Assembly: GCA_017449525.1 (NCBI GenBank)
Contig: JAFTFL010000017.1
Location: 62,001 to 126,000, forward strand
DNA from: Bacteroidales bacterium
GTDB lineage: Bacteria > Bacteroidota > Bacteroidia > Bacteroidales > P3
DNA: 64,000 nt
Direction of reading: 5' to 3'
Under the pieces are notes generated by a model that worked only from the letters and a program-made list of their open reading frames with translations, was not told the DNA's origin and made no database searches. The position numbers and the translations under genes are program-made. Position 1 is the stretch's first letter. Every line of letters begins with the position of its first letter. Positions 12,336 through 60,916 of this stretch are shown piece after piece.

Positions 12336-12564
12336 GCACATCCTCATGCCTCTTCATCCACATCCGTTGTTTTCCTCATGCACATCCCTTTGTCCTCCTC
12401 ATGCGCATCCCTTTGTCCTCCGCATGCGCATCCCTTTGTCCTCCGCATGCACATCCTTCGCCTCCCCCTCATGCGCATCCGTGCTTCCGTCCCTGCCCCC
12501 ACTGTCCTCTTCGTGCACAGCCTCGTCCATATTCATGCGCACATTCACTTTCTCCGTAGGGCAC
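12336..12564. repeat. Periodic palindrome array A (TGCRCA type, 22-24 bp)
   Basis: The four-base core GYRC starts at 12336, 12380, 12403, 12426, 12449, 12473, 12515, 12537 and 12561, with degenerate copies at 12358 (CCAC) and 12495 (GCCC). Steps are 22, 22, 23, 23, 23, 24, 22, 20, 22 and 24. Eight copies are exact TGCACA or TGCGCA. In 12375-12443 the whole 23-bp unit is repeated almost perfectly three times; elsewhere only the core is kept. The step is not a multiple of three, so the proline- and histidine-rich frames across it are unlikely to be proteins. Confidence 0.75.
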
Positions 12565-12644
12565 TCTGCCTCTTTCGCATCAGCCTCCACCAGCCGTGCC
12601 TTCAGCGTAGGAGGCAGTCCTCGTGGACGGAGCAGTATCACCCC

Positions 12645-12761
12645 ATACGAAAAGACGGGGTAGACCCGTAGTCTATCCCGTCCTAAGTTGTACAACACCC
12701 GTCCCGATGGCCTACGGCAAGTGCCTCTATGCCGTACGGGTGTTATCCATTAAGAGTGCGG
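12645..12761. repeat. Periodic palindrome array B (GTAC type, 22 bp)
   Basis: GTAC-like cores lie at 12668 (GTAG), 12690 (GTAC), 12712 (CTAC), 12734 (GTAC) and 12756 (GTGC), each exactly 22 bases apart; a further relaxed copy (ATAC) is at 12645. The segment 12709-12740 resembles 29957-29988 in array C at most positions. The array overlaps the 3' end and terminator region of the small gene at 12765-12902. Confidence 0.6.
12650..12682 (-). terminator. Intrinsic terminator of the 45-codon gene
   Basis: Read on the minus strand, GACGGGATAGA pairs with TCTACCCCGTC (11 bp, one wobble pair) around a 7-base loop, followed by TTTT. A second stem lies between it and the gene: AACACCCGT at 12694-12702 with ACGGGTGTT at 12736-12744. 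Confidence 0.75.
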
Positions 12762-12764
12762 TAT

Positions 12765-12902
12765 TTACTGCTCTCCGTTAATGATGGCCTTGTGAACAGC
12801 GTTCCATCCTGCAGCGTTGATACCCCAATTGTTGGTGGAGTTCTTGTTGCCGCGCACTCTAACTTTTCTTCTCTTTACCTTTTTGTTTGCATTAATACCC
12901 AT
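12765..12902 (-). CDS. 45-residue basic small protein, unknown function
   Basis: A short frame with every part of a complete transcription unit: ATG at 12902, TAA at 12765, an in-frame stop 12 bases upstream of the start, a strong promoter with both boxes at 12981-13012, and a good terminator at 12650-12682. The protein starts MGINANKKVKRRKVRVRGNK, very basic, and continues with a non-repetitive half containing NNWGINAAGWNAVHKAI. The segment GIN occurs twice, and the Trp-Gly and Gly-Trp pairs suggest a structured C-terminal half. It has no signal peptide or membrane helix. An RNA- or DNA-binding role would suit the basic N-terminus but is a guess. I do not recognise a family. Confidence 0.65.
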   Translation of the reverse strand: MGINANKKVKRRKVRVRGNKNSTNNWGINAAGWNAVHKAIINGEQ

Positions 12903-12980
12903 GTCTATGCTCTATTAATATGTTTATACTCTTGTTCTACAATTCCATTGCCGTACTGCTACGTAGCGCAAAAACAGGTG

Positions 12981-13012
12981 CAAAGGTATTGTTTTTTTTC
13001 CTCTCCTGCAAA
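12981..13012 (-). promoter_or_regulatory. Promoter of the 45-codon gene
   Basis: On the minus strand TTTG (13012-13009) is followed after exactly 20 bases by TACCTTTG (12988-12981), the full Bacteroidetes -33/-7 arrangement. Transcription should start near 12975, about 73 bases before the ATG. Confidence 0.75.
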
Positions 13013-13058
13013 TCTTTTTGCCTTTTATTCAAGAAGTCGCATCGCTTGGCACTCCGTT

Positions 13059-16034: not shown

Positions 16035-16051
16035 AGTGTATCGTCTCCTAT

Positions 16052-16240
16052 TTAGAACCATTCGCCGTGGTAGTTATCGCCTTCCGTATTGGTAATTTCG
16101 CTCACTGTCTCATGGTCGATGACCTCGACCGATGCAGCATAGCCCTGTTCCACAGTGTAGGTGAAGACCTCGACACGGGGAGGCTCGTAGGGCAGACGTG
16201 GGGTCGACAACGTTGTGCTGACTGTTGGCGTAGTGTCCAT
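16052..16240 (-). CDS. 62-residue protein between adhesin and lipoprotein genes
   Basis: A small protein with no signal peptide or membrane segment. After a Thr-rich start it has LPYEPPRVEVFTYTVEQGYAAS and an acidic end. The pattern Pro-rich stretch, hydrophobic strand, then EQGYAAS is one I have seen in short Bacteroidales proteins located beside surface lipoproteins; their function is not known. It lies 39 bases after the adhesin stop and 17 bases before the lipoprotein start, on the same strand, which supports it being a real operon member and not a chance frame. Confidence 0.65.
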   Translation of the reverse strand: MDTTPTVSTTLSTPRLPYEPPRVEVFTYTVEQGYAASVEVIDHETVSEITNTEGDNYHGEWF

Positions 16241-16279
16241 GTTATACCTTATTATATATAGTGTGTATAGTTCGGTTGT

Positions 16280-19200
16280 TTACTTCTTGATGACCTTGCG
16301 CACTGCTACGCGACCCTTGGTAGTTACCCGCAGGTAGTAGGCACCCGAAGGATAGCGGCTGAGGTCGACCGTCTCTATGTCGGCCGAAGCGGTGCGTTCT
16401 TGAAGGCGACGGCCATCGGCCTGGTACACCTCTATCTTCTGAAGCCCGTCGGCTTCAACAGTTACGGTGCTCAATGTCGGGTTGGGGTAAGCACTGATGC
16501 GCGTAGTGTCGCCCAGCGGAGTGCTGAACACATAGAGGTTGAGCATCACAACGCTGTCGCAGCCGTGAACCGTCAACAGGCTGTCCACCAGCTGTACCGT
16601 TCGCACAGCCCCCTCCTCACCCGTCTGGGACAGGATGGACTGCAGATCCTCGGCCAGCAGACTGAAGCCGTAACGCGAATAGTCATCGCCCAGCTGCAAG
16701 CTGTCGGACAACGTCAGGGTGGTGCCATGATTGATGGTGAGCACTACGGTGTAGGTGCTGTCAACAAAGAGCGCACTGTCCACCGTATTGAAACTGATGC
16801 GGCCACTCTGGTCGTAGCGTTGTCCATCCAGCTCAAAGTCGCCACAACTCTCCACCGTGTCGACCACCGTAACGGGCACTATCTCGGGCGCACCGTGTAT
16901 TGGGTAGCCTGCGTTAACATTGCGGTAGTCGCCGTGCCAATAACTGTAGACATCATTGCCTTGACGCTTCTGCTCAGCCACCCACAGGTTGAGGGCGCGA
17001 GTGAGGTTGTTTACGCCGTATACAGTGCGCGACATGGTAACGTTGCTGCCACTACCCGAGAATTCGGAGAGTTGTTCCAACCGGTTGTTCGAGCCCTGCG
17101 AGCTTCCCACGCGCGACAGACCTGCCAGCCCATCGTTGTAGTAGCAGTGGTCGAGCGACACGTTGTTGCCTGTAATAGCAACCAAACTGGCCGGCAGCGA
17201 GGCAGCACGCACATCGCCGTAGACGTAGTTGTTGCTCATTCGTGTGTCGGAGGCAGTACCCACCAGGCCACCCACACGCAAGTTGCCGTTGTCGGAGGTG
17301 GAAATTCGGATGTAGTTGTTGGCCGACACTACGGTCTGGTCTGCCGCCTTGCGACGGCTGAAGAGACGGCGTAGCAGGCGGGGACGGCTCTCGCCATTCA
17401 CCACACCCTTGCCCATGCCAGCAAAACCACCGAAGTAGAGCGCACGGCTATTGGTGCCGTTCACCACAAGGTGGTTGTTGCGCCCCTCGCAGTCTTCCAT
17501 CTGACCGAATAGGCCACCCGCGTAGATGGCGTCGCCAATGATTTCGACCGACGAGTACTCCTGCTGGAAACGCTCGTACAGCGCCTTATATATGCTGAAC
17601 TGAAGAGTATCTTTGGTATACAACTCAGCGCCACCCTCACCGCTATACTTGGGATCCGACTCGTCGGGCGGATTGGAGAGGTCGATCTGGTCGTTCGACC
17701 CCACATAGACCAAGTCAGTGCGGCCGCCTGTTACAAAGTCTTCGTTGCAAGAGGGGTTGGCCTTAACCCATGAATCCAGATGGGAAGCGTCGCCCCAGTT
17801 CAGACCCTGCTGATCGGAGATCGCTTCTCCATCGTAGCGCACGAGATTGCCTTCACCGTCCAGCACTGCACGGACACCGAGGATACAGTTCTCAACGAGT
17901 GCCTCCTTACCGTAGCCTATCATGGCACCCACAACATTGGTACCAGAGAAGTTGCCGTTGTGCAACCCCACGTTGCTTACGCGGGTGTGATTGACAGCCC
18001 GTGCGGCCAAACCTCCCACATAGTTGTGGCCAACCAAGAATTCACGGTGCAAGGTGAAACCTTCTATTTGGGCACTGTCCACGCAACCGAAGAAGCCCAC
18101 GTATGGCAACTCCTCTTCGTCAACGATGATGTCATTGATGTGAACCTCCTTGTCTGCTGGGTAGGGATCGAAGGTCTTCGGGTCGCGTTCGGCGCGCTTG
18201 AAGATACCCCGGAACGGGTGGCCTGCGGTACCCAGCGGCGTCCAGCGGTGTGCCTGCATGTCGTACTCACCAGGAGCGATGTAAATGGTGTCGAACACGA
18301 AATCCTGAGCCTGCTGCCCGTTCAGACCGTTGACGGTGCTGATGAGCCAAGCCAAGCCTTCCTCATTGGTGATGGTAACCGTACCACGGTAGTTGACATG
18401 GTAGCCCTCTGCAGGTTGCGTTGTTACAGTCTCCCACCAGTAGCTAAACGGGCTATAGAAAGCGGCCACCGTAGCGTCGCTGTTGCGGATGACGTACTCG
18501 GTCGATGCTGGCGACTGTGGGTCAAAGTCCCAGAAGACGAAGTTGAGGTTGTCCGTATACGGGGTACAGGTATTCAACTTCACCACATTGCCTGGGCATA
18601 AGAGGACACGGCTGTCAATAGGCACGTCATCGTAGTCGCGACGGCTGACGTAACCATAGCGCGGTTCCGGCTGCACAACAGCATAGAGATGGTAGCCGTG
18701 GTATTCGCGGATAAAGCGCGCAGGACCATCCACATGGCACGTACGACCATGACCACGTATCATGCCCGGCACATAGTTCTTCGACGCATTGGCATAGCGT
18801 GGCACCCAGTACATGTTGGCCATATTGCCTTCATAGTCGCGATGCAGGATGTACTTCGGCACCGAGTCGGCATTTCCGTCGGGCAGATAGCCGAAGTGGT
18901 AGAGCCACTCGCGCTCGTCGTCAATGGCGTTGCCATCGATGGTGATGGCGGGATAGTGGTGCAGCTGCAGTTGACGCGTGCCAGATCCAGTCGAGTCATT
19001 GTATACAAGGATTTGGTCGGCCGAGCCCGAGGTGTTACCCCTGCCGTCGTCCGTTACCTTCACGATGTTGCCACCGAGCGTAGCGAGGGCGCTCTCATAG
19101 TCCTTGCTGATACTGGTGTAGTAGCCTTCGTATGGCAACTTGTCAATCAAGTTGCGGCCAAAGTCATCCACTGCCACCGAGCCCACCGTAGTCGTATGGT

Positions 19201-22200
19201 CGTAGGAGGTCTTCACATGGTAATCCTCTACGGTGCTCTCCAACTTCTTCACCATAATCTCCACGTCTTGGGTGAGGGGGCACTTGTAGGAGATGTCGTT
19301 CATCACAACGCGGTAACGGAACACGCGGTTGTTCTGCGAACCGCGCAACTCCTCGAGGGCAGTGAGTCGGGCGGTGTCTTTAGCCACCAGTGCCCCGAGC
19401 ATACCCGTCGTCTTGTCGCGGTAGGCGTTGCGTATCACCGCATTCGTTACCGGATCAAGCACCTCATCATCTTCATTGTAGCCGTGTGCCTTGTAGGTAT
19501 GACGTCGCAGCTCATTGGTCTCTTTGTACTTGGTGCCAGCTATAACAACATCACCGTCGGTATCATCCTCATCGTAGTGCTGCAGATACCAATCAAAGGT
19601 GTAGCCAGGCAGACCTCCTTGTACTTTAATGAACAAAGAGTCCATGCCGTCGGGGCACTCCGACTCAACATAGATTCGATACTCAACGCTGTCGCGGTGC
19701 TGCTTCTTCATGAAGGTGGCACAGCGGTGCAGGTAGATGTGGTTGCTGCTGATGCGCGAATTGTAGAAGGTGTCTACACCAAAGTCCGTACTGTCGGCGA
19801 AGAATATCTTGCTGCGATGTACGTATTCTGCATTGGTAGCCGCACCGATACCGTCGCTGATGGCGAAGAAGATGGTGTCGCGGATGGCACGCTTGTAGGA
19901 GGGATCCCCACCAGGGAACCACTTGCTGATGCCGATGGCGCTACTCGGGTTGAGTTGCGACTCAAACACCACGAAGTCGGTCTGGTCATCATGACGCTCT
20001 ATATAATCGTGCTCGTATACGCTGCGTCCGTCCACCTGTAGTGTTTTATAGTCATCGATATTGGCCACCGTCGCGTCGAAGCCAGCCAACATCTGGTCGT
20101 CTGGGCTACTGCTGGAGTAAGGCTGCGTGGTGCGAGTCAAGAAGATATTGCTGAACGAAGGGAAGCCCAACTCATTTGAGCCAGCCGACCCGACGATGCT
20201 GTCCACCACCATCTTGTATTCATTCACCACACTGAGGCCTGTCGAGGAAGCAGATTCGCCACAGACCGTAATATCACTGCTGATGGTCTTGCCTCCAGTC
20301 TTGTGGGTATAGGTGTTGAAGTCTATTTTACCATGTCCAGCAAACGGGGTAGGCAACTCCTCGGTGGTACCCACACTGGCGTAGGTCTTATCGCCCTCCA
20401 CATGCAGCGCGGGATTCCAGTAGTAGTTGTAGCGTATGTTTATCAGATTACCATTGGAGAGGCTGCCGAGGTGTACCCTGCCTCCGTCAACGTAGACACC
20501 TGCTCCGTGGTTGACTGGCTTGGTCTGTTTATAGTAGAAGTCGGCATCACGTACACCGCCTGCTGCATACTGGGCATCGGTGTAGGCCTCGCGATGGTCC
20601 ACGATGATGTTGTCGTAGATGAAGATGTCGCTACCCAACGTAGCTTGAGGCACCCATGCTGCGTGCTCTACCCCACCATCGATATATGCAGGCTTGCCGC
20701 GCATACCAATAGCGCCACCGAACATCTTCCACTGCTGCGGCAAGGCTTCACCCGCGGTGTAGGGCGACGCATGCTGCACATAGGCCATGCCATCGGCGTT
20801 GCTGAAATTGTTCATCATGCGTACGCTATAGCTGAGGTTGAGCGTACCCTTGTCCTGCACCCAAATGATGGGGGCATGGGCAAAGAGTGTATCTGCTTCG
20901 CGCAAGTCGTTCTCGTAGTAGTAGCCTCCGTCAGCAGCGGCCACCTTCGGGCCATGTTCTATCAACGTGCCGTCCGTCCTCTTCGTCTTGACTCGGGTCA
21001 GACCGCTTCCGTTGAACCACACGTTGTACATTGTCAGCATTGCCGAGTCCTTCACGGTAATCAGCGGTCCACGATAGGCACAAGCCTTGCCCGGGAAGGT
21101 GTAGTGGCTCCCAGAGTAGCGTATGATTTGAATGAAGTTCGACTCATCCATGCCGTGTGGTGTAACGTTCTCCGAGCCCTTCAGTTCCACCTCGTCCAAG
21201 ATTGCAATCACATCGCCTTCGCGGAACATGCCCGAACTCAGTGCCTCCTCGAAAGAGCCAAGGAAACGGTCGGGGCGTTTGCCGTACTTGTAGTCGGGAA
21301 GTGTATTGTTCATCACGTACTGCGACGCTGTCCATGACAGGACCTCGTTGCGGCGCGTGTTGCGCTGAGCCTCATCGAGCGTAGTGCCACTGAGGGCACC
21401 GTACTGGGCAATCGTCTGTCCGTTGCGCTGTAGTACATCGGTCGTTGCCACATATATCGTGTCGCCACCCGTACGGGTTCTCACGTTAATGATAACTTTA
21501 AACTCGCCTTTGTCCTCGACTGTGGTACCCTGGTAGCTGAACGTCATGGTAACCTTGCCCACGCTGGAGCAGTCATCGTAGTTCAAGTTTCCGTTATAAC
21601 GCATGTTGATGTCGAGGCCGGCCGTTGCACGTCCGTCGAGCGTACCAATGGCAATACCCTTGTCGGAGTAGTTCAGCAGCTCGTTAAGGTCAGAGCCAGT
21701 ACGTGCCACCTCATGGTTGAGCGCCTGTCCGCTCGTGCCGTTCGTCTTTCTGATATCAGCACAAGCATCCATCGACTCATCGTTGCCAGCATCGGTAAAG
21801 AGGTCTATGCTGTTGACTGCACCGCGATTGATGTCGTACCAGCCGAGCGTGTTTCCGAGGTTCTCGGTAACATAGGTGGTCGGCGTAACGGTGAAGGCAA
21901 AATCCTTATATGTAGGCATCGTACCCTTGGTGATGCTGTGCATATAGAAAGCGTTTTCGCAGCCCTCATTATTACTCACTATAAGAGCGGCGGTGTGGCC
22001 GGTCGGGTCGTCGGTCCATGTGGTATCGGTACCGACAATATCTTTGATGTACAAGAATTCGCCCGAACCAGAGTTGGTCGAGGTAGCCTTCACAGATCCT
22101 GACACCTGGGTTTTGGTGAACGTGTACTCCGACCCCGTTTGCTTCACATACAAGCCGCGCGCTACAGCATCGCTTGGTGTCATCACGCGCTCCTCTCCCT

Positions 22201-25200
22201 CTCCGCTCTGATGCCATTCCACGTTAGAGAGGAATATCTGTCTGCGCTTGAAGGTAGCGGGCAATATCACTTTGCGGCCGTAATCGTTGCTGATGCCTCC
22301 GTTATACATTGCCCAAGTTTCCAGGTTTATCTCCTTCTTGAAGTCGCGCATCACAGTGCTGATCGTAAGGGTAACCCAGACAGGAGCCAACGCGTTACCG
22401 TTCTGATCAAACTCACGCATACGGAGCCGTACGTTGCGCGTAACGGTGGTCGAGAAGTCGGTGTTGTAGGTCAGGATGAAGTCCATGGTGGGGAAGAGTG
22501 TAGCCTGTTCCACCGTGGGAGTGAAATAGCTGTCGTTGCGCGTGAACCAGCCGTTGTCGGCCAGCACGAGTGGGTCGTTGCACCTGGTGAACGATGCGTC
22601 ATGACAGGTATTGGTGAAGTTACCGTGTTGGTCAGCCGTGTTGTCGGTGTGCGGACGTAGCAGCAGACCGAAAGTGTGGGTCGGGTCGGTCTCAATGGCC
22701 GCACCGTCGTGCAGTGTAGTGGGGGCACTCTGCGAGAGAACCCAACCTGAGGTTGACGATGCAGGATAAGGAGAAAATGGGTCCTTGTTGGGATTCCATG
22801 CTGCCTCAATGAGAGATATTTGACCTCCCTGGTCATTGTCCACCACAAGGCTCTCTATGGTGAAGTAGTTACCAGCCTTCGAAGGCGGCAACTGCAGCGG
22901 CGACGTGTTCACGGCGTAGGCGTAGCGATGGTAATCCGTACCGCCATTCGACCAGCTTACCCAGTCGTCGGCCGTGCCTGGGTCAGTATCTGCTATCTTG
23001 AAGTTGCGAGTGGGGTTATCCTCCGGGTGGTCGTTGGCAATGATGATGATGCTACGAGCGCGCTCGCTGTTGACTGGGTCGCCCACCTGCCACGAGCGGA
23101 ACGAAGCACCTCCCACCTCATCGGCCTGTGCATCGGGATGACTGCCGTTGAAGTTTTCATACACCAGTTCCTTGCCAGACCCAGTGTAGTTCTTCTCCAC
23201 CTCGTTGCCTTGCACCACGGAGGTGGCGCACTCAGTCCAAAAGCCACCATCCTCTTCGTTGACGGGGTTAGCAGCCTCTACAACGCGACGGCGTGCAAAG
23301 ACGTATCCCATCGATTCGTCCGACATGCCGAAGTAGGCATAGCCCTCCACGGGACCGTAGGTCGCGTTGATGTTGTGTGCAGGGTTCGAGGGGTCAGCCT
23401 TGAAAGGCAGCACCATGACATAGGCACCGCCGCCCATCATCAGCACATTCTTGCTTTGGGAAGATGCGTAGAGGTTGCAGGGGTCGGCACAGCCGTCCAC
23501 CGAAATCCGGGAATCAACATTATACAAGTCGTTAATTAGTCCGTAAGGATAGTCGGGACCACGGCGCTCACTACGCATGTGTCCCACGAAGATGGCTGGA
23601 GTGGATATTGCAATGAAGTTGTCGTTGCGCAGCGTGAGTGTGTCCACGCGGCAGAACGAATAGTCGGGCGACACCGAAGCGCTGATGCGGTCTTGCTCAC
23701 CGCGTAGTGCGAGGTAGACGCTGTCCAGAATCACCAAGTCGGCACGCTGTATGGAGTATATCTCGTTGTTCGCCGCGCGGCAGTTGGAACTACCGTAGTT
23801 GCGGAAGTGTATGAAGCGGAATATGTCGCCGCCCTCCGTAGAGGTACCAGCACCAATGATAGACTGCGTAATCTGCATGGGCGGTTCATCCGAGAATGCA
23901 GCGTTGCGGTCGTCGGTGTAGTAGCCTCGACCGTCGATGAGAATACGCGATTCGCCTCCATAGATACCAGGAGTACTGAACACGGCCATAGCACCAGCAC
24001 TACCCCAGTCTGAACCATTATATATAGAGGAGGCGATCATCAGGTTATTTGTCTTTAGGTCGGCAGGCTGCGACACTGAGGCAACGAGGCGCGGCTTGTA
24101 GGAGGCGAAGCGTACACCTGTGCTGCCGTCGCGGTCGCTCGTTGTGCCAGCAATGGCACTGCCGTAGCCGCGTTTCCACACCTGCGACTCGGCCACCGCG
24201 TTGGTACCCACATTGACGTAAACCGAACCGTATACGGTACCTTCGTAGCCAGCGCCGTACACACTCTTATTGACCGTACCGCCTGTGAGGTTGATGACCG
24301 AAGAAGGACGCATCGTAGACGACTTGCCATCGGTGTAGGTCGTGGTGTCTGTACCCTGGCACTCCCAGTAGTAGCCGTCGTCAATGTACTCACTGCCGCC
24401 ATGCAACGTGTGGTAGATAGAGCCACCGTCTACATTTACCTGCTTGTAGCCGTAGACCAGCTGCATGTGGTCCTTACGGCTGATGGGGTCGGTCGTGGGG
24501 GTACTTGCTGTGATGGTGCTACGCTCGGTTTCCGTCAACTGGCGGCCAAAAAAGCGCTTGCCCGCCATGTAGTTCTCCTCCAAATAAGAGATACCGCGTG
24601 CGCCACCGAACACCTTATTCTGCAAGCTGCCACCGTGGATGGTCAGCACCACATCGCCGTAGATGTCCTCCATCGTGGTATCAGGCGTTATAGGCGTTGC
24701 CAAGCTGCAGTCGGGTCGTTCAACAATGTAGCCACTTCCTGGCGTGTAGCCAGTGATGTACTTGTTTCCCACCAGTCCCATGTTACCGCCGCCATACACA
24801 TTGCCGAGGAAAATAGTGGCCGTGTCGTGCGACGACAAGGGGTTATCCTTATCGTTGATGGTCATGCGCACATGCATGCTATAGGGCACCGTGTCCAGCA
24901 CCTTCCCTTCCAATGCACCGCCCGAGGCGAAAGCCTCCGAGCCAAACTTGTTCTTGAACCACGGCAGGTACTCATACTCTCCGTTGCCTGCACCAAAGGC
25001 GCAGTAGAACGTGCCACTGTTTATCGTAACGTCGGTATTCTCCACCCTACCGCTGAAGTCGTTGCCACCATACACGGTGTCCACCGAGGTTTGGAAGCCC
25101 GTATGCGGCTTGGGTGCAGAGATATTAGCTGAGGCTGTGCCCTTCACGTCGCTGGCCACACAACCGGCATAGATAGCCTCTATATGGTGAGTAAAGGTTG

Positions 25201-29497: not shown

Positions 29498-29830
29498 TGT
29501 GTTCCTTGTTATATTCGTCTTGCACCTGGCATCTGCGCGGGCGCACTGTCGGTTGCCGCAGCGCAGAAAGCCCTCCCTCTCTCGGTTTATGGTTCTTCGT
29601 TCTGTTAGTATAGCCTCTTTTGTCAGCACTGCTGAATGGCTATGTTTTCACTTTTTTTAGTTTTCTTGTTGTTCTCCTCACCGTGGGTATGCCCCACAAC
29701 CACACCACAAGCGCTGCGCTTCGAGCCTTTTTCGTCAGCTCGGCACATACGTTTCGTTCTCTCTGTAACAATCACGTTATTAGGCATATATATATATGCG
29801 TTGTCGGTGTTTTCGGTACAGTTCGAACTG
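29498..29830 (-). other. Long untranslated leader of the adhesin operon
   Basis: If transcription starts just below the TATCTTTG box at 29831-29838, the mRNA has a leader of about 330 bases before the chosen ATG, or about 195 before the alternative ATG at 29629. It contains T-rich stretches and an alternating TA tract near 29785. No riboswitch or leader peptide was recognised. Confidence 0.45.
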
Positions 29831-29838
29831 CAAAGATA
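29831..29838 (-). promoter_or_regulatory. Candidate proximal promoter -7 element of the adhesin operon
   Basis: TATCTTTG on the minus strand matches TAnnTTTG. No -33 TTTG is seen at 20 bases; a TTG lies only 10 bases upstream. Confidence 0.5.
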
Positions 29839-29959
29839 TTATTTTTCAACGACACACACCTCCTTTGCCTGCGGCCAACTCCGACCTCCCCAACGGATGC
29901 CCTCGGACAGCCCGTTCACCAGCCTCCAGATGCCTTGCCACTTCCCCCCATTCTTCGGC

Positions 29960-30118
29960 CAACGGCAAGAACGCCTATGCCGTACGACAGCGAGGCCATA
30001 GCCGTACGGCATTACCCCCAGATGCCGTACGGCACCACAGCTACACGACATACTGATTCCAAAGACGATAGCAGCAGCCGAGTCGTACTGCCGCACGACA
30101 GTTGACCCCACGGCGTAC
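29960..30118. repeat. Periodic palindrome array C (CGTACG type, 22 bp)
   Basis: GTAC cores start at 29982, 30004, 30027 and 30115, with GCAC at 30093 and a relaxed copy at 29960. Steps are 22, 22, 23, 66 (three periods, the inner two sites eroded) and 22. Most cores lie in CCGTACGRC. The bases between cores differ from unit to unit. The array fills the divergent gap between the adhesin operon and the esterase gene. Confidence 0.7.
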
Positions 30119-30224
30119 GACCACGGGAACCATGCTCAGGGCGAGCAGCAATGAAAAGCGGGCAACACGTCGGGTAGCACTCGGCCGCCAAGCAGGCCAC
30201 GACTCAAGCCTGCACACGACGATG

Positions 30225-30232
30225 CAAAGGTA
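30225..30232 (-). promoter_or_regulatory. Candidate distal minus-strand promoter upstream of array C
   Basis: TACCTTTG on the minus strand lies in the context TTCGTACCTTTGCA, identical to the one at 51889-51896. A transcript starting here would run through array C towards the adhesin operon. Confidence 0.45.
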
Positions 30233-48001: not shown

Positions 48002-48050
48002 ATTACTACTCCTGTTGTGAACAATCAGTATCGCGACACCGCACGTACGG

Positions 48051-50486
48051 CTACGACTTCTTGGGCGAAGAAGCAGAGTCCTCCTCGCCGTACCCGTACC
48101 CGTACCCGTACCCGTACCCGTACCCGTACCCGTACCCGTACCCGTACCCGTACCCCCCGTAGCGCTTCTTGATGAGAGGAGTATCGGTAAGGACGATGGC
48201 CATGTTGTTGAAGCGCTTCTTATCATTCAACTCTTGAATGAAGGGGAACGAAGTCTTGCGAAGCACGCCGATACGCATGACGTAGAGCGTCAAATCTGCT
48301 GTGCGGTTGATGATAGCAGCGTCGGCCACAATCTGAGCTGGCGTACTGTCGAAGATTACGTAATCATAGTGTTCGCGCAGATAGGCTGCCAGCGCGTCAA
48401 ACTTCTCGCTCAGGAGCAACTGCGTGGCATTGGGTGGGGTCTTCTCGCACACGATGTAGTGCAGGTTCTCGCTGCTCTCACTGCGTGTGATGATACGGTC
48501 TATGTCGGTCTCACTACCCAGCAGGTAATGAATGATGCCCATGCGGTTGTGGCGGTCGATCACTTTCGAGGTGCTGCGCTTGCGCAGGTCAAGGTCCACC
48601 AAGCAGGTCTTCTTGCCAAGATAGGCCAACGAGAGAGCAAGGTTCACACTGACATACGACTTGCCTTCGCCCGGCACCGTAGAGACGGTCTGTATAACCT
48701 TCTTGTCTGATCCGTTGAGGAAGAAGGGTATGTTGCTGTGAAGTATACGGAATGCCTCGGTAACGACATCAGTGCCGGTGGCCGTAACGATGACGTCCTC
48801 ATTAGCCTTCTCTTCGGGTTTGGAGGGTATCTCGCCCAGCACCGGTATCGTGAGCGCCTGCTCTACGTCCGCTTTGCTACGGAGCTTTGTGTTGAAGAAG
48901 CTGATGCAGAACATGACGGCTGCTGGCAATGCCAGTCCGAGCACCAGGCCCACCAGCCCATACATCGTGATGTTGGGGGCCACTCTCATAAGGTCGGCAC
49001 GCTCCACCACTTTGGCATTGGCCACTGTGACGGCCTGCGCCAGGGCGTTTTCTTCACGCTTGCTGAGCAAATACAGATAGAGTTCCTCCTTGATTTTCTG
49101 CTGACGAGACACCTCTGCCACTGCCTTGGCCTGCGTAGGCATATCGGTAATTTGGCGCTTGGCGCGCGATTCCTGGTCGCGCGACGACTGCAGTTTGATG
49201 TTAAGCGAGTTGAGGTAGTTGTCTATAGATGCAACGATGGCCACTCGCGTGGCTTCGAGTTCGCGTTCGGTGGTGCGCAGGTTGGGGTTGTTGGCTCCTG
49301 CGGTGTTGAGCAGTTTCTGATAGTGCAGCAGCTGCTTGTTGTAGTCCGAAATCATGCTTTGCACACCGCCGTCGTTGACACCCACATTGGAAGGAAGCAG
49401 GTCATTCTTGTGGTTGGGGTCAACCACATAAGCGCGTACCTGCTGCGCCAGGTCGAGCTCGGTCTCAATAGAGAGCGTCGCCTCGGAGTATTGTGTACCC
49501 TTGGTGAGGAGCATGCTGCGGGCATTCTCGAGGTCGGTTACTCCAGCACTTTTGTAAAGGTTGGCCACCTGATTATCCACATCACTTAGTTCCCCACTGA
49601 TGAGGGCGATGCGCTCGGCAATGAAATCCTCAGTCTTCTGAGCCACACGGTTCTTATCATTCACTACGTCTTCGTTGTACACCACGATGAGGGTATCTAC
49701 GATCTCGCGTGCCCTGAGGCTGTTCGGGTCGTCGAACGTAATAGAGATGATGTCTGCGTTCTTCTCCACCCTTGATACGGTGAGCCTACGGAGCATGGTC
49801 TTAGCCACTTTGGCCGGAGTGTGCGAGGCGAAGTGGAAAGACACGCCGCAGTCGTTGTCGCGGTAGTAGGCCGTGCGCTCCACGCTGAACGATACCCCTG
49901 TGTTGATGTTGACCACCTGGTTGTACATGGCTTCCTGCCAATCAGATTTGACCGACTGACCGTTGAGCGAAGTGATGCGGTACTTATAGTGCTGGTCGTC
50001 GACTGGTTCGACGGTGATGTTGACGGCGAAGTTCTCGTTGTCGAAATCGCGGTTGTACACGGTGAGATCCAGTGGGCAATCTTTGTAGTAGGTGATCTTG
50101 CGGAACAGACCGTTACGGGTGCACACGGTGGCCAAGCCCAGGCGTTCCACCACGCTGGCCATGAGCGGCGAGGACTTTAGTATATGGATTTCATTCTCCA
50201 AGCTCAGAGAAGAAGTGTTGAAGCCCATGTTGGCAAATATGGCATCCATTTGTTGTCCACCCTTTGAGCTGCCCTTGTCATCGCGCAGCAGAATAGTGGC
50301 TGCCTGGGTGTAGGTCTTGGGCTTCGACTTGTATACAAAAGCGGCTATCAACAGGCACACGGCAGCCGAGATGGCAAACCAGTACCAGTTGTTGATGACG
50401 ATGAATACGAGTTCGCGTATGGAGATGTTGCTTTCGCCTTCCTGCGCGTCAGTGTTGAACTGGTTGGATGTTTGGATGTGCTCCAT
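48051..50486 (-). CDS. Wzc-like bacterial tyrosine kinase with a (Tyr-Gly)11 tail
   Basis: An 811-residue polysaccharide co-polymerase and BY-kinase. It regulates chain length and export at the inner membrane through cycles of tyrosine autophosphorylation. Residues about 20-110 are the Wzz domain with the first membrane helix, 270-480 a long coiled coil, and 505-530 the second helix. The kinase domain has Walker A ([14 protein letters not shown], near 602) and Walker A' ([13 protein letters not shown], near 626). The C-terminal tyrosine cluster, normally four to seven irregular tyrosines, is here a perfect (YG)11 run encoded by eleven hexanucleotide repeats, followed by [11 protein letters not shown]. 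It follows the Wza-like gene by 58 bases. Confidence 0.93.
48088..48153 (-). repeat. (GTACGG)11 hexanucleotide tandem repeat inside the kinase gene
   Basis: Eleven uninterrupted copies of CCGTAC on the plus strand (GTACGG on the minus strand), 66 bases. Read in frame on the minus strand they give Tyr-Gly eleven times. Loss or gain of units keeps the frame and changes only the number of tyrosines. Confidence 0.97.
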
Positions 50487-50544: not shown

Positions 50545-51411
50545 CTACTGCCGATACCTGTTGGTCAAGGTGGCGTAGTATATCATCATGACCACGGTAC
50601 TCACCGAGGTGATGGCCATCGAGACGTAGGACATCCAGGTGTTGTCGCGGTCGCCGCTGCGCTTGCGCTTCTCGTTGGGTTCGACTATGATGACATCGTT
50701 CTGATGCAGGTAGTAGTAGGGCGAATTGGTCAGTTCCCTTGAGGTAAGGTCCACATTCCCAAGGACGCGCTGCCCATTCTCCTCGCGTAGTACGGTTACG
50801 TTGTTGCGCATGCCGTAGATGGTCAAGTCGCCCACCATGCTGAGTGCTTCGAGTATGGTGAGTCGCTCGCCCTGCACCATGAGTTGTCCCGGCTTGGCCA
50901 CCTCGCCAAGCACACTGACTTTGAAGTTCATGAGCTTCACCGTAACCACCGGATCCTTAATGTGTCCCTCCTCCACCAGTCGTCTCTGCAGCATGTGTGC
51001 CAACGAGTCGTGGGTCAAGCCCAGCACGCGTATCTTGCCCAACACGGGGAAGATGATGTCGCCGTCGGCGCTAACCAAATAGCCAGGCACCTCGCGAGAG
51101 GCGGCACTGTTGTTGAGCACCGTGCCGTCCGACACGGCTATTTTGTTCGTCTCCTGGTTGAAGCGAATGGTGGCTTCTGGGGTCTCGCTCTCCACGTAGA
51201 TGTTGAGCAAGTCGTTGGCTTGTATACCCTTTGAGAACTGCGCCTCAAAGGCCACCGCACTGTCGCGTGGGGCGTCCTTCATGTAGGCCAGTTCCTGCAT
51301 GCGGCAAGATGCGAACAGCACCACCGTCAACATGGCCACTACGCCAGGGGCTACGGCCGTGCGCATTCCCCCAATTCGGCGCATTTTACTATAGCTTTCG
51401 TTATTCTTCAT
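50545..51411 (-). CDS. Wza-like polysaccharide export lipoprotein
   Basis: A 288-residue outer-membrane export protein of the Wza/BexD family. The start at 51411 gives a basic N-terminus, a hydrophobic segment and the lipobox VVLFASC. The polysaccharide export domain (IQANDLLNIYVESETPEATIRF) and an SLBB domain (VSVLGEVAKPGQLMVQGERLT, near residue 180) are visible. A C-terminal hydrophobic segment (MSYVSMAITSVSTVVMMIYY) could be the membrane-spanning helix as in Wza. It is shorter than E. coli Wza (about 380), as is usual in Bacteroidota. It is the first gene of the 15-kb operon and has a strong promoter. Confidence 0.92.
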   Translation of the reverse strand: MKNNESYSKMRRIGGMRTAVAPGVVAMLTVVLFASCRMQELAYMKDAPRDSAVAFEAQFSKGIQANDLLNIYVESETPEATIRFNQETNKIAVSDGTVLNNSAASREVPGYLVSADGDIIFPVLGKIRVLGLTHDSLAHMLQRRLVEEGHIKDPVVTVKLMNFKVSVLGEVAKPGQLMVQGERLTILEALSMVGDLTIYGMRNNVTVLREENGQRVLGNVDLTSRELTNSPYYYLHQNDVIIVEPNEKRKRSGDRDNTWMSYVSMAITSVSTVVMMIYYATLTNRYRQ

Positions 51412-51484
51412 CGCACTATAACTTCTTATGCTACTGTCCACCTCGCAGCACGACACCATGCCGTGGCCACGTAGGGGAAACGTG

Positions 51485-51516
51485 CAAAGGTACTAATAAA
51501 AAACGAACCCACCAAA
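51485..51516 (-). promoter_or_regulatory. Promoter of the polysaccharide operon
   Basis: TTTG (51516-51513) and TACCTTTG (51492-51485) on the minus strand are 20 bases apart, the full Bacteroidetes arrangement. Transcription should begin near 51478, about 67 bases before the Wza-like start. Confidence 0.75.
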
Positions 51517-51603
51517 TGGGCTGCCAAACGCCCACCGCAGGAGTGCATTGCAACGACTGCCACGAGCTCACACGGAGGGCTCTGCCACGCACCGCCCAAT
51601 GCC

Positions 51604-51806
51604 GCACGACCTATGCCCTTTTGCCGTACAGCAGCGTGGGCTGCACCGTACGGATTTAAGTTCTATGCCGTACAGCAACCACCCCACGCAGTGCAGTGAA
51701 CAGCAACGCCATAACAGCAACCACGGCAATATGCCGTACGGCGTGACACCCCACGCCGTACGACACACCCCCTCACGCCCTGTGCGGCAGCACCCTTGTG
51801 GTGCAC
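51604..51806. repeat. Periodic palindrome array D (CGTACG type, 22 bp)
   Basis: Cores start at 51604 (GCAC), 51626, 51648 and 51670 (GTAC), 51691 (GTGC), 51736 and 51758 (GTAC), 51782 (GTGC) and 51803 (GCAC). Steps are 22, 22, 22, 21, 45 (one eroded site near 51714), 22, 24 and 21. The GTAC copies mostly read CCGTACRGC. The intervening 12-13 bases differ in every unit, so this is not a simple tandem duplication. It fills the gap between two minus-strand promoters of the polysaccharide operon. Confidence 0.75.
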
Positions 51807-51888: not shown

Positions 51889-51896
51889 CAAAGGTA
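51889..51896 (-). promoter_or_regulatory. Candidate distal promoter upstream of array D
   Basis: TACCTTTG on the minus strand, with the flanks TTCGTACCTTTGCA identical to the element at 30225-30232. A transcript from here would cross array D and run into the polysaccharide operon with a leader of about 470 bases. Confidence 0.5.
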
Positions 51897-51983: not shown

Positions 51984-51991
51984 TAACTTTG
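51984..51991 (+). promoter_or_regulatory. Candidate promoter -7 element of the nucleotidyltransferase gene
   Basis: TAACTTTG matches TAnnTTTG; a start near 51998 gives a leader of about 40 bases before the ATG at 52038. Confidence 0.6.
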
Positions 51992-52037
51992 CAGGGCGCA
52001 AGGCCACAACAACCTGCGCCCATCAACAGCCAACTAC

Positions 52038-55627: not shown

Positions 55628-55823
55628 GGCACATCAACCACACTGGTTAGCCCCGACTCCTGAGCACACCCACCGCCAGCGGCCAACATGGAGTCGCAAA
55701 GGGGTGTTCTATCGCTTTCGCGCAGACCAACGGCTCCTCGGCCGACAGCCTGCTCATGCTGAGGGAACACTCCCACTCCAATAAAAATTCAGCACAACGA
55801 CACACCACGTGAAAAAAACTGCG
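55628..55823. other. Intergenic stretch, nothing recognised
   Basis: No gene, terminator or repeat was recognised between the nuclease stop and the promoter at 55824. Confidence 0.5.
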
Positions 55824-55831
55824 TATATTTG
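55824..55831 (+). promoter_or_regulatory. Candidate promoter -7 element of the OmpA/TPR lipoprotein gene
   Basis: TATATTTG matches TAnnTTTG. The resulting leader of about 130 bases contains an inverted repeat (CCCTCG 55849-55854 with CGAGGG 55878-55883) and a 28-codon frame starting at 55841, almost at the predicted transcript start. Confidence 0.55.
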
Positions 55832-55970
55832 CATCTTGATATGCAGAACCCTCGCCCTATCGTACAGGATGAGACTACGAGGGCATATCCATTTGTTGTA
55901 GTGCAGTTAATATATAGGAATAGATAAAGAAGGGCTACCTTGAGTGCGCCCAACATAAAACCACCATTAC

Positions 55971-57800: not shown

Positions 57801-57817
57801 CCCTCGAAGCGCACTAC

Positions 57818-57849
57818 AGCCCATGATGCTCACCCCGTCATGGGCTTTT
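57818..57849 (+). terminator. Terminator after the OmpA/TPR gene
   Basis: A perfect 9-bp stem (AGCCCATGA / TCATGGGCT) with an 11-base loop is followed by TTTTA, 18 bases after the stop codon. Confidence 0.85.
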
Positions 57850-57854
57850 ATAAT

Positions 57855-57992
57855 GCGCGCCCATCAATACTCCACTGTGCGCCTCACAAGAATATAATGT
57901 GCTTTCCTCGACACAACCCCGCACGTTCCTCAATACTATAATGTACTCTCCACAATGAATGTGCCGTACATTCCACGATGATTATAATGCAC
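57855..57992. repeat. Periodic palindrome array E (YGYRCR type, 22 bp), upstream of pssA
   Basis: Four-base GYRC cores start at 57855 (GCGC), 57877 and 57899 (GTGC), 57921 (GCAC), 57943 and 57965 (GTAC) and 57989 (GCAC). Five consecutive steps are exactly 22 and the last is 24. Several cores are preceded by ATAAT. The unit TATAATGYACTCTCCACAAT occurs at 57937 and 57983, the second copy running into the pssA start codon. Confidence 0.75.
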
Positions 57993-58000
57993 TCTCCACA

Positions 58001-58741
58001 ATGATTAAACGTAATATACCCAACCTCATCACCCTCGGCAACCTGTTCTGTGGCGTTATGGCTGTGCGCATGGTCATGCCGGGGCGATGGGCAGAAGCCA
58101 TCGGCTTCATCTGCTTAGGCATAGTGCTTGACTTCTTCGACGGTTTGGCAGCACGCCTGCTGCAGGTGCCTTCCACCATCGGCAAAGAGCTGGATTCGCT
58201 GGCCGACACTGTTACATCGGGAGTTGCCCCGGGCTTCCTCCTCTTCATGATACTATGGGAGCACAGCACCATCACCTTCTTTAAGTACATTGCTTTCCTT
58301 ATCCCCGTCTTCGCTGCCTATAGGCTGGCCAAATTCAACGTGGACGAGCGACAGCATAACGGCCTGTTCCGTGGACTGCCCACCCCTGCAAATGCCCTGT
58401 TTTGGGTGGGCATCAGCCTATGGAGCGAAGAGTGCGAGCTGCCGTGGGCGTGGTACGGCCTTGCAGGTGTCGACCCAGGCTTTTGGACTCAAATCTTTTG
58501 CGATGCAGGCTATGTGTGCCTCGCCATCATTTCACTTCTTCTGAACATTCTTATGGTCAGCAACCTGCCCATGTTCTCCCTGAAAGTACACTCCCTCGCA
58601 TGGGTCGACAACAAGTTGCAATACCTGTTCGCTGCAGGATGCCTCCTCCTGGTGTTGCTGTTCGGCATAGCTGCCGTTCCGATGCTCATCGTTTGGTACA
58701 TCATCCTCTCCGCCTGCACTGCCCGAAACTATGCCCACTAA
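58001..58741 (+). CDS. pssA: CDP-diacylglycerol-serine O-phosphatidyltransferase
   Basis: A 246-residue inner-membrane enzyme that makes phosphatidylserine, precursor of phosphatidylethanolamine. The CDP-alcohol phosphatidyltransferase motif is complete: DG-x2-AR-x8-G-x3-D-x3-D in DFFDGLAARLLQ...GKELDSLAD (residues about 45-70). About seven hydrophobic segments follow. The start at 58001 (MIKRNIPNLITLGNLFCG) matches relatives; the frame is open 14 codons further up into array E. No Bacteroidetes promoter box was seen, but array E lies directly upstream. The stop overlaps queA by 11 bases. Confidence 0.93.
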   Translation: MIKRNIPNLITLGNLFCGVMAVRMVMPGRWAEAIGFICLGIVLDFFDGLAARLLQVPSTIGKELDSLADTVTSGVAPGFLLFMILWEHSTITFFKYIAFLIPVFAAYRLAKFNVDERQHNGLFRGLPTPANALFWVGISLWSEECELPWAWYGLAGVDPGFWTQIFCDAGYVCLAIISLLLNILMVSNLPMFSLKVHSLAWVDNKLQYLFAAGCLLLVLLFGIAAVPMLIVWYIILSACTARNYAH

Positions 58742-59954
58742 CACTCCGGCACCGGCTCACATAGCCATCGCCGATTACGACTACGACCTACCCAACGACC
58801 GTATAGCCAAGTACCCTCTCGAGCAGCGCGACCAGTCGCGTCTGCTGCTGTATCGTGGGGGACAGCTTGAGGAGCACCGCTTTGCGCAGTTGCCTTCGCT
58901 ACTGCCCGCCGATGCTCTTCTGGTCTTCAACAATACCAAAGTCATTCACGCCCGACTGCATTTCCGCAAGGCTGGCGGCGCCACCATCGAGGTGTTCTGC
59001 CTCGAGCCGTGGCGCAGCCCCGTGGCTCAAGCTTTTGAGCAGCGGGGGCACTGCACGTGGCTCTGCCTCATTGGCAACAACAAGAAGTGGAAATCGGGTC
59101 CACTCTCCCTCGAGGTCGACATGGGAGAAGCCACCACTACGCTGCAAGCCACCCGACGCGAAGCCGTGGGCGACTCCTGGGTGGTGGACTTCGACTGGAC
59201 GGGCAATTTCGACTTCGCGTCGGTCATAGAGCGTGCTGGGGTCATACCGCTCCCCCCCTACCTCCACCGGCAAGCCGAGCAGTCCGATGCCGACCGCTAC
59301 CAGACCGTCTATGCCCAACATGACGGCTCGGTGGCAGCCCCCACTGCAGGCCTTCACTTCACACCCGAACTGCTTGACCAGTTAGGTCAAACGGGCATCC
59401 CCACGGCGTACGTCACCCTACACGTCGGTGCTGGTACATTCAAACCCGTCAGCAGTACCACCATTGGCCAACACACCATGCATGCCGAGCCCGTCAGCAT
59501 CAGTCTCGACGAGTTGCGCCACATCACTTCCATGCGCGCTTCCCGACGGCTCATTGCCGTGGGCACCACTTCGGTACGCACCCTCGAGTCCATCTACTGG
59601 TTCGGAGTTCAACTGAAGAACGACCCCTCCCTGCAGGCTATGAGCATCGGACAGTGGGACCCCTACACGCTGTCCTCCAGCCTCTCCCCCATCGATGCCC
59701 TACAAGAGGTCATCGCCTGGATGGAACGACGGGGCGACACACTCCTGCACGGCGTAACCCGCCTGCTCATTGCCCCTGGCTACACCTACCGCGTGGTGCA
59801 GGGTCTCATCACCAACTTCCACCAGCCCAAAAGCACTTTGCTACTCCTCGTCTCGGCCTTGATAGGCGACGACTGGCGTCGTTGCTACCGCTATGCTTTG
59901 GACAACGGGTTCCGCTTCCTAAGCTATGGCGACAGCTGCCTCTTCCTCCCCTAA
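58731..59954 (+). CDS. queA: tRNA S-adenosylmethionine ribosyltransferase-isomerase
   Basis: A 407-residue QueA that transfers and rearranges the ribose of S-adenosylmethionine onto preQ1 in the anticodon of tRNA, giving epoxyqueuosine. Motifs are DYDYDLPNDRIAKYPLEQRDQSRLL at residue 13, LLVFNNTKVIHARL near residue 62, and DGSVAAPTAGLHFTPEL near residue 200. The end (NGFRFLSYGDSCLFLP) is the normal C-terminus. It overlaps pssA and lies four bases before the comF start, so pssA, queA and comF form one operon. Confidence 0.96.
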   Translation: MPTNTPAPAHIAIADYDYDLPNDRIAKYPLEQRDQSRLLLYRGGQLEEHRFAQLPSLLPADALLVFNNTKVIHARLHFRKAGGATIEVFCLEPWRSPVAQAFEQRGHCTWLCLIGNNKKWKSGPLSLEVDMGEATTTLQATRREAVGDSWVVDFDWTGNFDFASVIERAGVIPLPPYLHRQAEQSDADRYQTVYAQHDGSVAAPTAGLHFTPELLDQLGQTGIPTAYVTLHVGAGTFKPVSSTTIGQHTMHAEPVSISLDELRHITSMRASRRLIAVGTTSVRTLESIYWFGVQLKNDPSLQAMSIGQWDPYTLSSSLSPIDALQEVIAWMERRGDTLLHGVTRLLIAPGYTYRVVQGLITNFHQPKSTLLLLVSALIGDDWRRCYRYALDNGFRFLSYGDSCLFLP

Positions 59955-59958
59955 GTCC

Positions 59959-60654
59959 ATGCGGCAGGCCTTCAAAGACCTCCTCGGTCTCGTCTACACA
60001 CCTACCTGCGCCCACTGCGGTGCCCCACTCGTAGGCGAACAGACTGGCCTATGTGTGGCCTGCCAACTCGACCTGCCCACCACAGGCTTTGCACCCCTCG
60101 TCTCCAATCCTGCCGAGCTGCGACTGGCGGGGCGCATCCCCTTTGTGGCTGGCTCCTCATTTCTACACTTCAGTCAAGACAACCCCACGCAGCACCTCGT
60201 GCACCACATTAAATATAGGGGACATCGCCAGCTGGCCGTCAGCCTGGGTCGCCTCATGGGACACGACCTGGCATGTTCGCACCGCTTCGACGATGTCGAC
60301 CTCCTGCTGCCTGTGCCCCTACATCGCTGGAAACTGCTCCAACGGCGCTACAACCAAAGCCTCCTGCTCTGCAACGGCATAGCCGAAGTGCTCGGGCTGC
60401 CCATCAACCACCGAACCCTCGTGCGCACCCGTTTCTCCCTAAGCCAAACCCATTTATCACGCATCGAGCGGATAGCCAACATGCAGGGCATCTTTGCCGT
60501 GCGTCGTCCCGAAGAGCTGTCGGGGAAGCACGTGCTTGTGGTCGACGACGTGCTGACCACGGGTGCCACTCTCGAAGCTTGCTGCCTCGCCTTGCAAGAG
60601 GTGGCCGACATCCGCATCAGCTTTGCCACACTGGCCTTAGCTGGTTATCTGTAG
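59959..60654 (+). CDS. ComF family phosphoribosyltransferase-like protein
   Basis: A 231-residue ComF protein. The N-terminus has a zinc-finger-like pair (TPTCAHCGAPL and LCVACQ). The C-terminal half is a type I phosphoribosyltransferase fold with the PRPP loop HVLVVDDVLTTGATLEACC near residue 195. ComF acts in DNA uptake and recombination in naturally competent bacteria, but the family is widespread and its reaction is not firmly known. Two starts are possible; ATG at 59959, four bases after the queA stop, was preferred over ATG at 59926 inside queA. Confidence 0.88.
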   Translation: MRQAFKDLLGLVYTPTCAHCGAPLVGEQTGLCVACQLDLPTTGFAPLVSNPAELRLAGRIPFVAGSSFLHFSQDNPTQHLVHHIKYRGHRQLAVSLGRLMGHDLACSHRFDDVDLLLPVPLHRWKLLQRRYNQSLLLCNGIAEVLGLPINHRTLVRTRFSLSQTHLSRIERIANMQGIFAVRRPEELSGKHVLVVDDVLTTGATLEACCLALQEVADIRISFATLALAGYL

Positions 60655-60799
60655 CCTTCCCCCCTCTACATCAGCGCCGCCACCTGTCGAAAAAGTACCC
60701 CACTACCTCATGGTCGGAGTGAGCCACTGCTTCGGTGCATCTGCCAAAAGCGAGCAGGAGTGATCGTTACCGACCGCAGCATCACCACTCCCTCATGCT
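60655..60799. other. Intergenic stretch before array F, nothing recognised
   Basis: No coding frame, promoter box or clear hairpin was recognised between the comF stop and the first core of array F. Confidence 0.45.
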
Positions 60800-60916
60800 G
60801 TACGACGTGAGGCTTCAGATGCCGTACGGCATGGAGCCCTACGCCGTACGACATGAGGCCACTTCCCGTACGGCAGAAGCCCTTGTCCCGTACAGCATCG
60901 GGAGCGCCACCCGTAC
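60800..60916. repeat. Periodic palindrome array F (CGTACG type, 22 bp), upstream of pyrH
   Basis: GTAC cores start at 60800, 60824, 60846, 60868, 60890 and 60913 (steps 24, 22, 22, 22, 23). All six are GTAC, most within CCGTACGRC. A looser secondary motif of the form GAGGC or GAGCCC recurs near the middle of several units, for example GAGGCC at 60855-60860, also seen in array C at 29992-29997. The remainder of the spacer is variable. Confidence 0.8.

Follow-up and report, generated by a model that had tools for sequence, protein, structure and literature searches.

In this study, intergenic palindrome arrays were analysed in a DNA stretch of 64,000 nucleotides from a Bacteroidales bacterium (GenBank assembly GCA_017449525.1, contig JAFTFL010000017.1, positions 62,001 to 126,000), hereafter referred to as the window. 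The window corresponds to C5:62001-126000 of a 2.53-Mb genome in 26 contigs with a completeness of 94.65%. A sequence-only reading of the window had described six arrays, A to F, as one design with a YGYRCR core repeated near 22 bp. Of these, C, D and F were confirmed as arrays, with CGTACG cores at steps of 22-24 bp; A has a second core, E is weak and B is not an array. Arrays C and D are members of a genome-wide family of about 120 loci, and F is a variant without promoter. Judged from its sequence features, this family of about 120 copies seems to be a chromosome-wide element, regulatory or architectural, of which no description was recognised in the literature available as open-licence papers. 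The sequence-only reading had overlooked that the arrays have a promoter of their own, that a conserved middle motif lies in a 66-bp step, and that many copies are spread at regular distances over the genome.

Palindrome arrays of the window and the genome

All features of element C lie on the minus strand. The -7 box of its promoter P1, TACCTTTG at 30225..30232, is located 198 bp upstream of unit 3, which is the commonest offset class. Palindrome unit 1 (30111..30122, core CGTACG at 30114) and unit 2 (30089..30100, core at 30092) are 22 bp apart, and the following 66-bp step contains a middle segment (30044..30071) with the conserved motif in register with other well-scored loci; the segment in C deviates from the TTR end of that motif. 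Units 3-6 occupy 29956..30034, with cores at 30026, 30003 and 29981 and a weak sixth unit at 29956-29967. A further promoter, P2, with the -7 box TATCTTTG at 29831..29838, belongs to the downstream gene, open reading frame (ORF) 16280-29629. This ORF, also on the minus strand, is a single reading frame of 4449 amino acids.

Element D, likewise on the minus strand, has its P1 box TACCTTTG at 51889..51896, 219 bp upstream of unit 3 and about two helical turns farther out than the main offset class. Units 1-2 (51732..51765, cores at 51757 and 51735), the middle segment with the conserved motif (51687..51714) and units 3-6 (51600..51677, cores at 51669, 51647, 51625 and 51603) follow in this order, and a P2 box, TACCTTTG at 51485..51492, stands before the downstream gene of the polysaccharide-export family (50545-51459). 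The 66-bp jumps within C and D are exactly three steps. Array F (60796..60920) belongs to class II and consists of six contiguous palindrome units (cores at 60799, 60823, 60845, 60867, 60889 and 60912) with no 66-bp step; no exact -7 box was found for it. Some cores of the three arrays are one-base variants, e.g. CGTACA and CGCACG.

YGYRCR proved unsuitable as a descriptor, with 386 occurrences in the window, and the conserved unit is the palindrome (T)GCCGTACGGC(A). The flexible pyrimidine-purine steps, which the sequence-only reading had invoked as a possible means of bending or wrapping DNA, are likewise not supported as the point of the design, as many of the variants resemble strand-biased C-to-T or G-to-A changes of one palindrome. 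None of the six arrays had been placed inside a gene; in our gene calls, which were made with a home-made hexamer scorer and have approximate gene starts, this is true of C, D, E and F, whereas A overlaps a weak predicted ORF (12399-12641). Genome-wide, the loci likewise lie between genes, and an overlap with a predicted ORF was seen for 1 of 119.

In the genome, 80 occurrences of the exact pair CGTACGN{15,17}CGTACG (21-23 bp) were counted, compared with 2 of the backward pattern, which speaks against chance; about 120 loci are present among the matches listed. Thirty stretches holding exact CGTACG pairs were read for layout, and a sequence-only model (R1) and a position matrix were built from 26 arrays. 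R1 gave 233 matches in the genome at E<=10, of which the best 128, after removal of same-place and other-strand duplicates, were used and merged into 127 loci. About six of these lie on redundant contigs, three by alignment and the rest by identical scores. A total of 119 loci were analysed; the 106 loci scoring >=50 formed the anatomy set, from which 13 loci scoring <50 were excluded, and element F is outside both sets. As genome-wide locus counts rest on the best 128 of 233 matches, about 120 is a lower bound.

The position matrix produced zero matches scoring >=25 on the reversed sequence of 464 kb. Lowering its threshold to 30 in the 464 kb added 2 loci, both already known, and the matrix misses some class II arrays. 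Autocorrelation at lag 22 was insensitive, as no more than about 12 of the 22 positions in a step are repeated: a first scan missed C, D and F, and a looser scan caught F alone, plus E at lag 44. Apparent duplicate arrays (F on contig C8, contig C9 with C14, contig C7 with C14) were rejected as assembly redundancy, with 99.98-100% identity over 5-6 kb. The small contigs C7, C8 and C9 duplicate larger contigs at 99.98-100%, and contigs C10, C11 and C21 probably do likewise, judging from identical match scores.

Layout, promoters and helical phase

Class I elements are about 300 bp in size and are built in a fixed order. A -7 box TAnnTTTG comes first; after about 108 bp it is followed by two GCCGTACGGC palindromes with a 22-bp step between them, and beyond a 66-bp step stand as many as four more palindromes, again spaced at 22 bp. 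In class II arrays (F, L031/L033, L036 and L040), 5-7 units adjoin one another and the box is absent. Over the 106 loci, steps of 22 bp were dominant (317, with 58 of 23 bp and 3 of 24 bp), the gap measured 66 bp in 102 loci (65 bp in 2, 68 bp in 1, none in 1), and two units before the gap with four after it was the commonest count (48/106). The slots at -44 and -22 within the gap hold a palindrome in 4/106 and 0/106 loci, respectively. The gap carries an asymmetric motif, approximately CTATNNNNNTNNNNNNCANCTTGTTGTG, which fills two 22-bp slots in fixed register. CAN5TTR was detected at the exact register in 64/106 loci (51/81 outside the first set), whereas at other offsets it averaged 0.18 loci and never exceeded 3.

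Conservation is concentrated in these parts. Mean pairwise identity was 0.743 for the palindromes and 0.568 for the middle motif, and that of the spacers was 0.295 (0.262 expected). The leader (0.265, 0.261 expected), the upstream flank (0.252, 0.250 expected) and the downstream flank (0.256, 0.254 expected) were at the level of composition. Many noncoding tandem repeats of 11 or 22 bp exist in the nearest relatives, and the arrays could accordingly be read as neutral minisatellites of a kind common in the group, produced by slippage at a period of 22 bp. This explanation is very hard to sustain, as the spacers are near random while the palindromes and the middle motif are conserved, the opposite of what slippage leaves, and both the promoter and the middle motif keep a fixed register.

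P1 was evaluated in 81 loci not used for layout discovery. Forward -7 boxes numbered 44 at -200..-181 from unit 3, with 10 in each of the two bins just upstream of this peak and 0 or 1 per 20-bp bin from -180 to +99. TAYYTTTG was present at -270..-150 in 85 of the 106 loci. Among the 86 TAYYTTTG boxes in this range, 51 lie in the main peak and the other 35 mostly near -185, -208, -218 and -230. These 35 off-peak boxes are in phase with the main peak at a period of 11.1 bp, with a mean cosine of 0.74, a value equalled in 0/5000 random draws at period 11 and in 0/500 in a period scan. According to the available text of PMC8501960, the helical repeat of bacterial DNA in vivo is 11 bp per turn. 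By these positions, promoter and palindromes share one helix face at about 11 bp per turn, and the helical-phase idea of the sequence-only reading is strongly supported by promoter boxes phased to the array. The P1 box fits the -7 motif TAnnTTTG of sigma-ABfr promoters, as given in the accessible part of PMC7366714; for the -33 motif TTTG, a weak (T/A)TTG was observed 13-16 bp before the P1 box, off the expected distance.

Of the 18 loci that lack a co-directional gene on the right, 17 have P1, which is therefore not simply the promoter of that gene. A further -7 box (P2) precedes 71 of 88 co-directional right-hand genes. P2 positions are spread over about 250 bp and are weakly phased to the array: with three box definitions, R was 0.36, 0.35 and 0.44 at periods of 11.2, 11.2 and 11.3 bp, and P was 0.042, 0.004 and 0/500 (0.008 against uniform positions). 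Left-hand promoters showed no phasing (R 0.31, P 0.31, n=40).

An own promoter, which occurs also between convergent genes, and adjacent palindromes that could form hairpins would be expected of a family of about 120 small RNA genes in which the palindromes of a transcript pair with each other. Under transcript pairing, C-to-T changes, after which G-U still pairs, should exceed G-to-A changes everywhere on the transcript strand. The ratio of C-to-T to G-to-A on that strand was 76:23 where it is G-rich and 47:90 where it is C-rich, and the orientation of the elements to the chromosome strand is mixed (45 G-rich, 56 C-rich and 5 between). A function at the DNA level is favoured because the substitutions mirror the chromosome strand and not the transcript. 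In addition, leader RNA structure gave no signal beyond shuffles (21 loci, mean z 0.02, values between -2.4 and 1.4), an Rfam scan of the window returned zero matches, and helical phasing of a promoter is a property of DNA, all of which make small RNA genes improbable. A DNA-level lattice for a bound protein, as the sequence-only reading had proposed, would fit these data.

Spacing, known systems and possible role

Relative to promoter direction, the genes flanking the 119 loci diverge in 75 cases; in 21 both run forward, in 11 both run in reverse, in 7 they converge, and in 5 the arrangement is unclear. In 464 kb, matrix-found elements occupied 12/33 divergent, 11/282 tandem and 2/34 convergent gaps, with one class II array missed. 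Among the matches listed, 103 within-contig gaps between elements, including one on the suspected redundant contig C21, had a minimum of 6.7 kb, a median of 16 kb and a coefficient of variation (CV) of 0.50. None of the 103 was shorter than 6.5 kb, against about 31 expected at random with the same mean. A type-matched redraw (464 kb, 22 gaps) gave a mean of 6.1 gaps below 6.5 kb, and none in 0.00-0.06% of 5000 draws.

Exclusion on the kilobase scale would fit transposition immunity, and high copy number, intergenic place, palindromes and a single-genome distribution are also typical of what mobile or selfish repeats would show, whether of the REP/BIME (repetitive extragenic palindrome/bacterial interspersed mosaic element), Correia or BrickBuilt type, the last a miniature inverted-repeat transposable element (MITE). 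BLAST among 700-bp pieces linked 301/5565 pairs, with a longest match of 104 bp at 74%; we take these links to be the shared motif, array matching array, the match positions being assumed. Leader, upstream and downstream identity at composition level, with spacers slightly above it, speaks against mobility, and the identical copies seen are assembly redundancy. The elements appear to share a syntax and no visible common ancestral sequence. The RAYT/IS200 (Y1) transposase family PF01797 had 0 matches in this genome and was found in 5/14 control genomes, an absence that is not absolute because the genome is 94.65% complete. Mobile repeats are thus disfavoured and would be a surprising outcome.

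Individual comparisons with such families revealed partial likeness. In BIME-1 of enterobacteria, the inter-REP sequence interacts with IHF and the repeats are linked to RAYT, according to the available text of PMC2817692. The same text describes more than 100 species-specific intergenic palindrome copies around an IHF-binding middle, which is the likeness, and high-copy intergenic palindromes are present here as well (127 merged matches before redundancy removal). The present elements differ in their 12-bp palindromes at a 22-bp step, phased promoter and regular spacing, and their copies share nothing outside the motif columns. Correia/NEMIS elements of Neisseria, in the accessible parts of PMC2649163 and PMC2229807, have at least 100 copies, a longer type that is almost wholly intergenic, an IHF site and a supply of promoters, and are 'fairly evenly distributed'. 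Copy number, intergenic place, promoter and even distribution are shared; the IHF identity of the middle site is putative in our case. As portrayed in those parts, Correia elements are mobilised copies of a conserved sequence bounded by an inverted repeat, whereas class I elements are not copies; full-length homology of the Correia or MITE kind was not found, identity outside the motif being at composition level. BrickBuilt of Porphyromonas gingivalis is described in the available sections of PMC4596501 as an intergenic MITE/minisatellite with 19 copies in one strain, a 23-nt step and leader and tail promoter activity. A Bacteroidales host, intergenic place, a 23-nt step and promoter activity are thus points of likeness; on the same description, BrickBuilt differs as a direct repeat of another sequence with leader and tail bearing terminal repeats, a variable repeat number and, in the described parts, no fixed 2-gap-4 layout (PMC4596501). 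The 23-nt unit of those sections, AGAYCATARTATCCTCTCRTRTG, was not found in our arrays, where the unit is, by eye, TGCCGTACGGCA plus about 10 variable bases.

A global regulon would explain the arrays as operators of one lineage-specific transcription factor that controls P1 and P2, in the manner of a large regulon of the CRP or Fur type with cooperative binding to multiple sites. We rank this explanation second because of the P2 phasing and the preference for divergent promoter regions; the strict phasing of P1 to the array and the extra box before most co-directional right-hand genes also agree with it. The ten right-hand genes examined (of 76 eligible proteins) showed no common function, and nine of them encode Na/Pi transport, topoisomerase/gyrase A, DnaX, carbamate kinase, DnaK, SufB, RecX, IlvE and an ABC ATPase; the tenth is unassigned. 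The lack of a functional theme, the retention of P1 without a co-directional gene and a kilobase minimum spacing, which a regulon would not lead one to expect, make it rather unlikely.

We consider it roughly an even chance that the class I element is a DNA-level nucleoprotein hub with a chromosome-organising role coupled to transcription. The spacing and an apparent indifference to neighbouring genes are our reasons for ranking this architectural reading first, and a chromosome-organising role seems somewhat more likely than a plain regulon. A dimeric DNA-binding protein would cooperatively fill each palindrome along one helix face, a bending protein of the IHF/HU family at the middle site would fold units 1-2 back toward units 3-6, and the folded complex would contact RNA polymerase both at P1 and, in a looser way, at P2 of the downstream gene. 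Such hubs, about 16 kb apart and for the most part located between divergent genes, would act as topological or loop anchors. Six matches to PF00216 (HU/IHF) were detected in the genome. The sites matS and those of SlmA and Noc provide a precedent for many palindromic sites across one chromosome read by one protein; they are single sites that are not known to include a promoter, an array or a middle site, unlike class I elements.

Several observations weigh against the hub. The divergent excess and the P2 phasing fit gene regulation as well, and an architectural site would have no need of a promoter as good as P1 seems to be. A TAYYTTTG box is missing from the P1 range in 21 of the 106 loci. 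The IHF consensus is WATCARN4TTR, and CAN5TTR has its geometry, but the full consensus is found in 0/106 loci; no A-tract appeared in the column profile of the elements. With regard to spacing, CV alone was mildly unusual in the 464-kb sample (P ~0.03), eight gaps among the matches listed exceed 35 kb, and, as the spacing derives from the best 128 of 233 matches, weaker copies closer than 6.7 kb might exist. The hub proposal draws on computation with one assembled genome.

More tentatively, the chromosome of this lineage may be a regular grid of about 120 promoter-coupled hubs with a dedicated palindrome-binding protein and a bend, in which the core changes between species and the 22-bp step of two turns stays; this would constitute a new class of chromosome architecture, and we hold it with less than even confidence. 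If true, the elements would be evenly placed along a whole chromosome and their syntax could be read; as the sequence itself would record the in vivo helical repeat of about 11 bp, they would offer a genomic readout of the phasing of supercoiled DNA in the living cell. They would also provide a concrete candidate mark of topological or loop domains in Bacteroidota, and a single-species distribution would make the coevolution of site array and protein testable.

Relatives, second core type and other features

The nearest loci matched by QueA came from Bacteroidales genomes with an identity of <=68%, several of them from rumen or horse faeces and one filed as Candidatus Colimorpha; records very close to the genome of the window are possibly absent from this comparison. 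Exact CGTACG pairs occurred in 9/120 genomes of the genus including its own, and the other eight have 1 to 3 each. The pairs read in three of these sister genomes (G121, G080 and G022) are short arrays at 22 bp in which other letters flank the core and the fixed layout is absent, and the pair in G092 did not look array-like. In G121, four CGTACG cores at exact 22-bp steps lie between convergent genes (C86:3856-3927, locus L279), with flanks unlike those of the genome analysed here. Two 22-bp palindrome-like arrays with other cores were observed in Parabacteroides sp. PF5-9 (L117:2694-2960 and 11303-11560), a distant genus. The proposal that palindrome class and step are kept, and not one exact core, gains support from these short arrays with other flanks, from the Parabacteroides arrays, and from the occurrence of CGTACG and ATGYRCAT arrays in one genome.

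A core-free layout scan of 820 kb of nearest-relative loci detected no excess at step 22, in an ungapped test that sees only part of the elements even in their own genome; the same scan gave excesses at steps 21 and 23 in other Bacteroidales. In 43 nearest-relative loci (820,726 bp), 16 noncoding repeats at lag 22 were detected, against 0-2 for other lags not divisible by three. An 11-bp unit is dominant among the noncoding repeats of relatives, with different 11-mers per species. In loci L046-L087 and L161, some 11-bp repeats resemble GGAGnnGATAC and are often inverted repeats near promoters; examples are L080:6792 and 19544, L068:7164 and 18142, L074:6155 and L081:12014, and within both L080 and L068 one 11-bp unit recurs at two places. 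Weak R1 matches appeared in 41/59 genomes (E<=1, own included) and were set aside: of seven loci read, most look coding and L161 is an 11-bp repeat.

Array A (12335..12541) has TGCRCA cores at about 23 bp and represents the second core type. Tandem Repeats Finder (TRF) gave a period of 23 bp for it, with 6.6 copies at 79% matches in 12331-12480 and the core ATGCRCAT. Pairs of ATGYRYAT at 22-23 bp were found at eight places in the genome besides A, namely, C3:37003-37120, C5:54440, C14:89194, C14:250281, C14:284953, C22:112046, C22:232520 and C22:240521; C3:37003-37120 and C14:250281-250334 have multiple units. The loose ATGYRYAT pattern gave 13 and 12 matches against 5 and 0 in the backward control, and as this control is not zero, single pairs may be chance. 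The stricter ATGCRCAT pattern gave 7 against 0 backward. Some large gaps free of CGTACG contain second-core arrays or pairs (A of the window, C5:54440, C14:89194, C14:250281 and C22:240521), which is no more than suggestive of the second core filling such gaps. Five stretches were printed (C3, A, C5:54440, C14:250281 and E), in which no exact -7 box was found, apart from two located 300-440 bp from A; none lies within 300 bp of A.

Array E (57854..57993), before a pssA-like gene, is an irregular array of YGYRC cores identified by eye and is real but weak. It holds three copies of ATAATGYRCTYTC, which is found nowhere else in the genome, and TRF detected 3.4 copies of 23 bp at 57937-58013, so that both TRF and the pattern support it. 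Another 22-bp array, with GTGGATGTGCT in its unit, was observed at about C14:104090-104300 (L034/L250), approximately 2.7 kb from a class I element. B (12640..12770) forms two hairpins inside a weaker outer stem in a minimum-energy fold, for which no shuffle control was run, and contains one CGTACG.

Two further observations concern sequences inside genes of the window. An exact CGTACG pair at 5689-5717, within a secDF-like gene, is probably chance. Within the Wzz/kinase-like gene 48051-50486, about 11 perfect CCGTAC hexamers were observed at 48088-48155; on the coding strand they might give Gly-Tyr repeats, perhaps a tyrosine-rich kinase tail.

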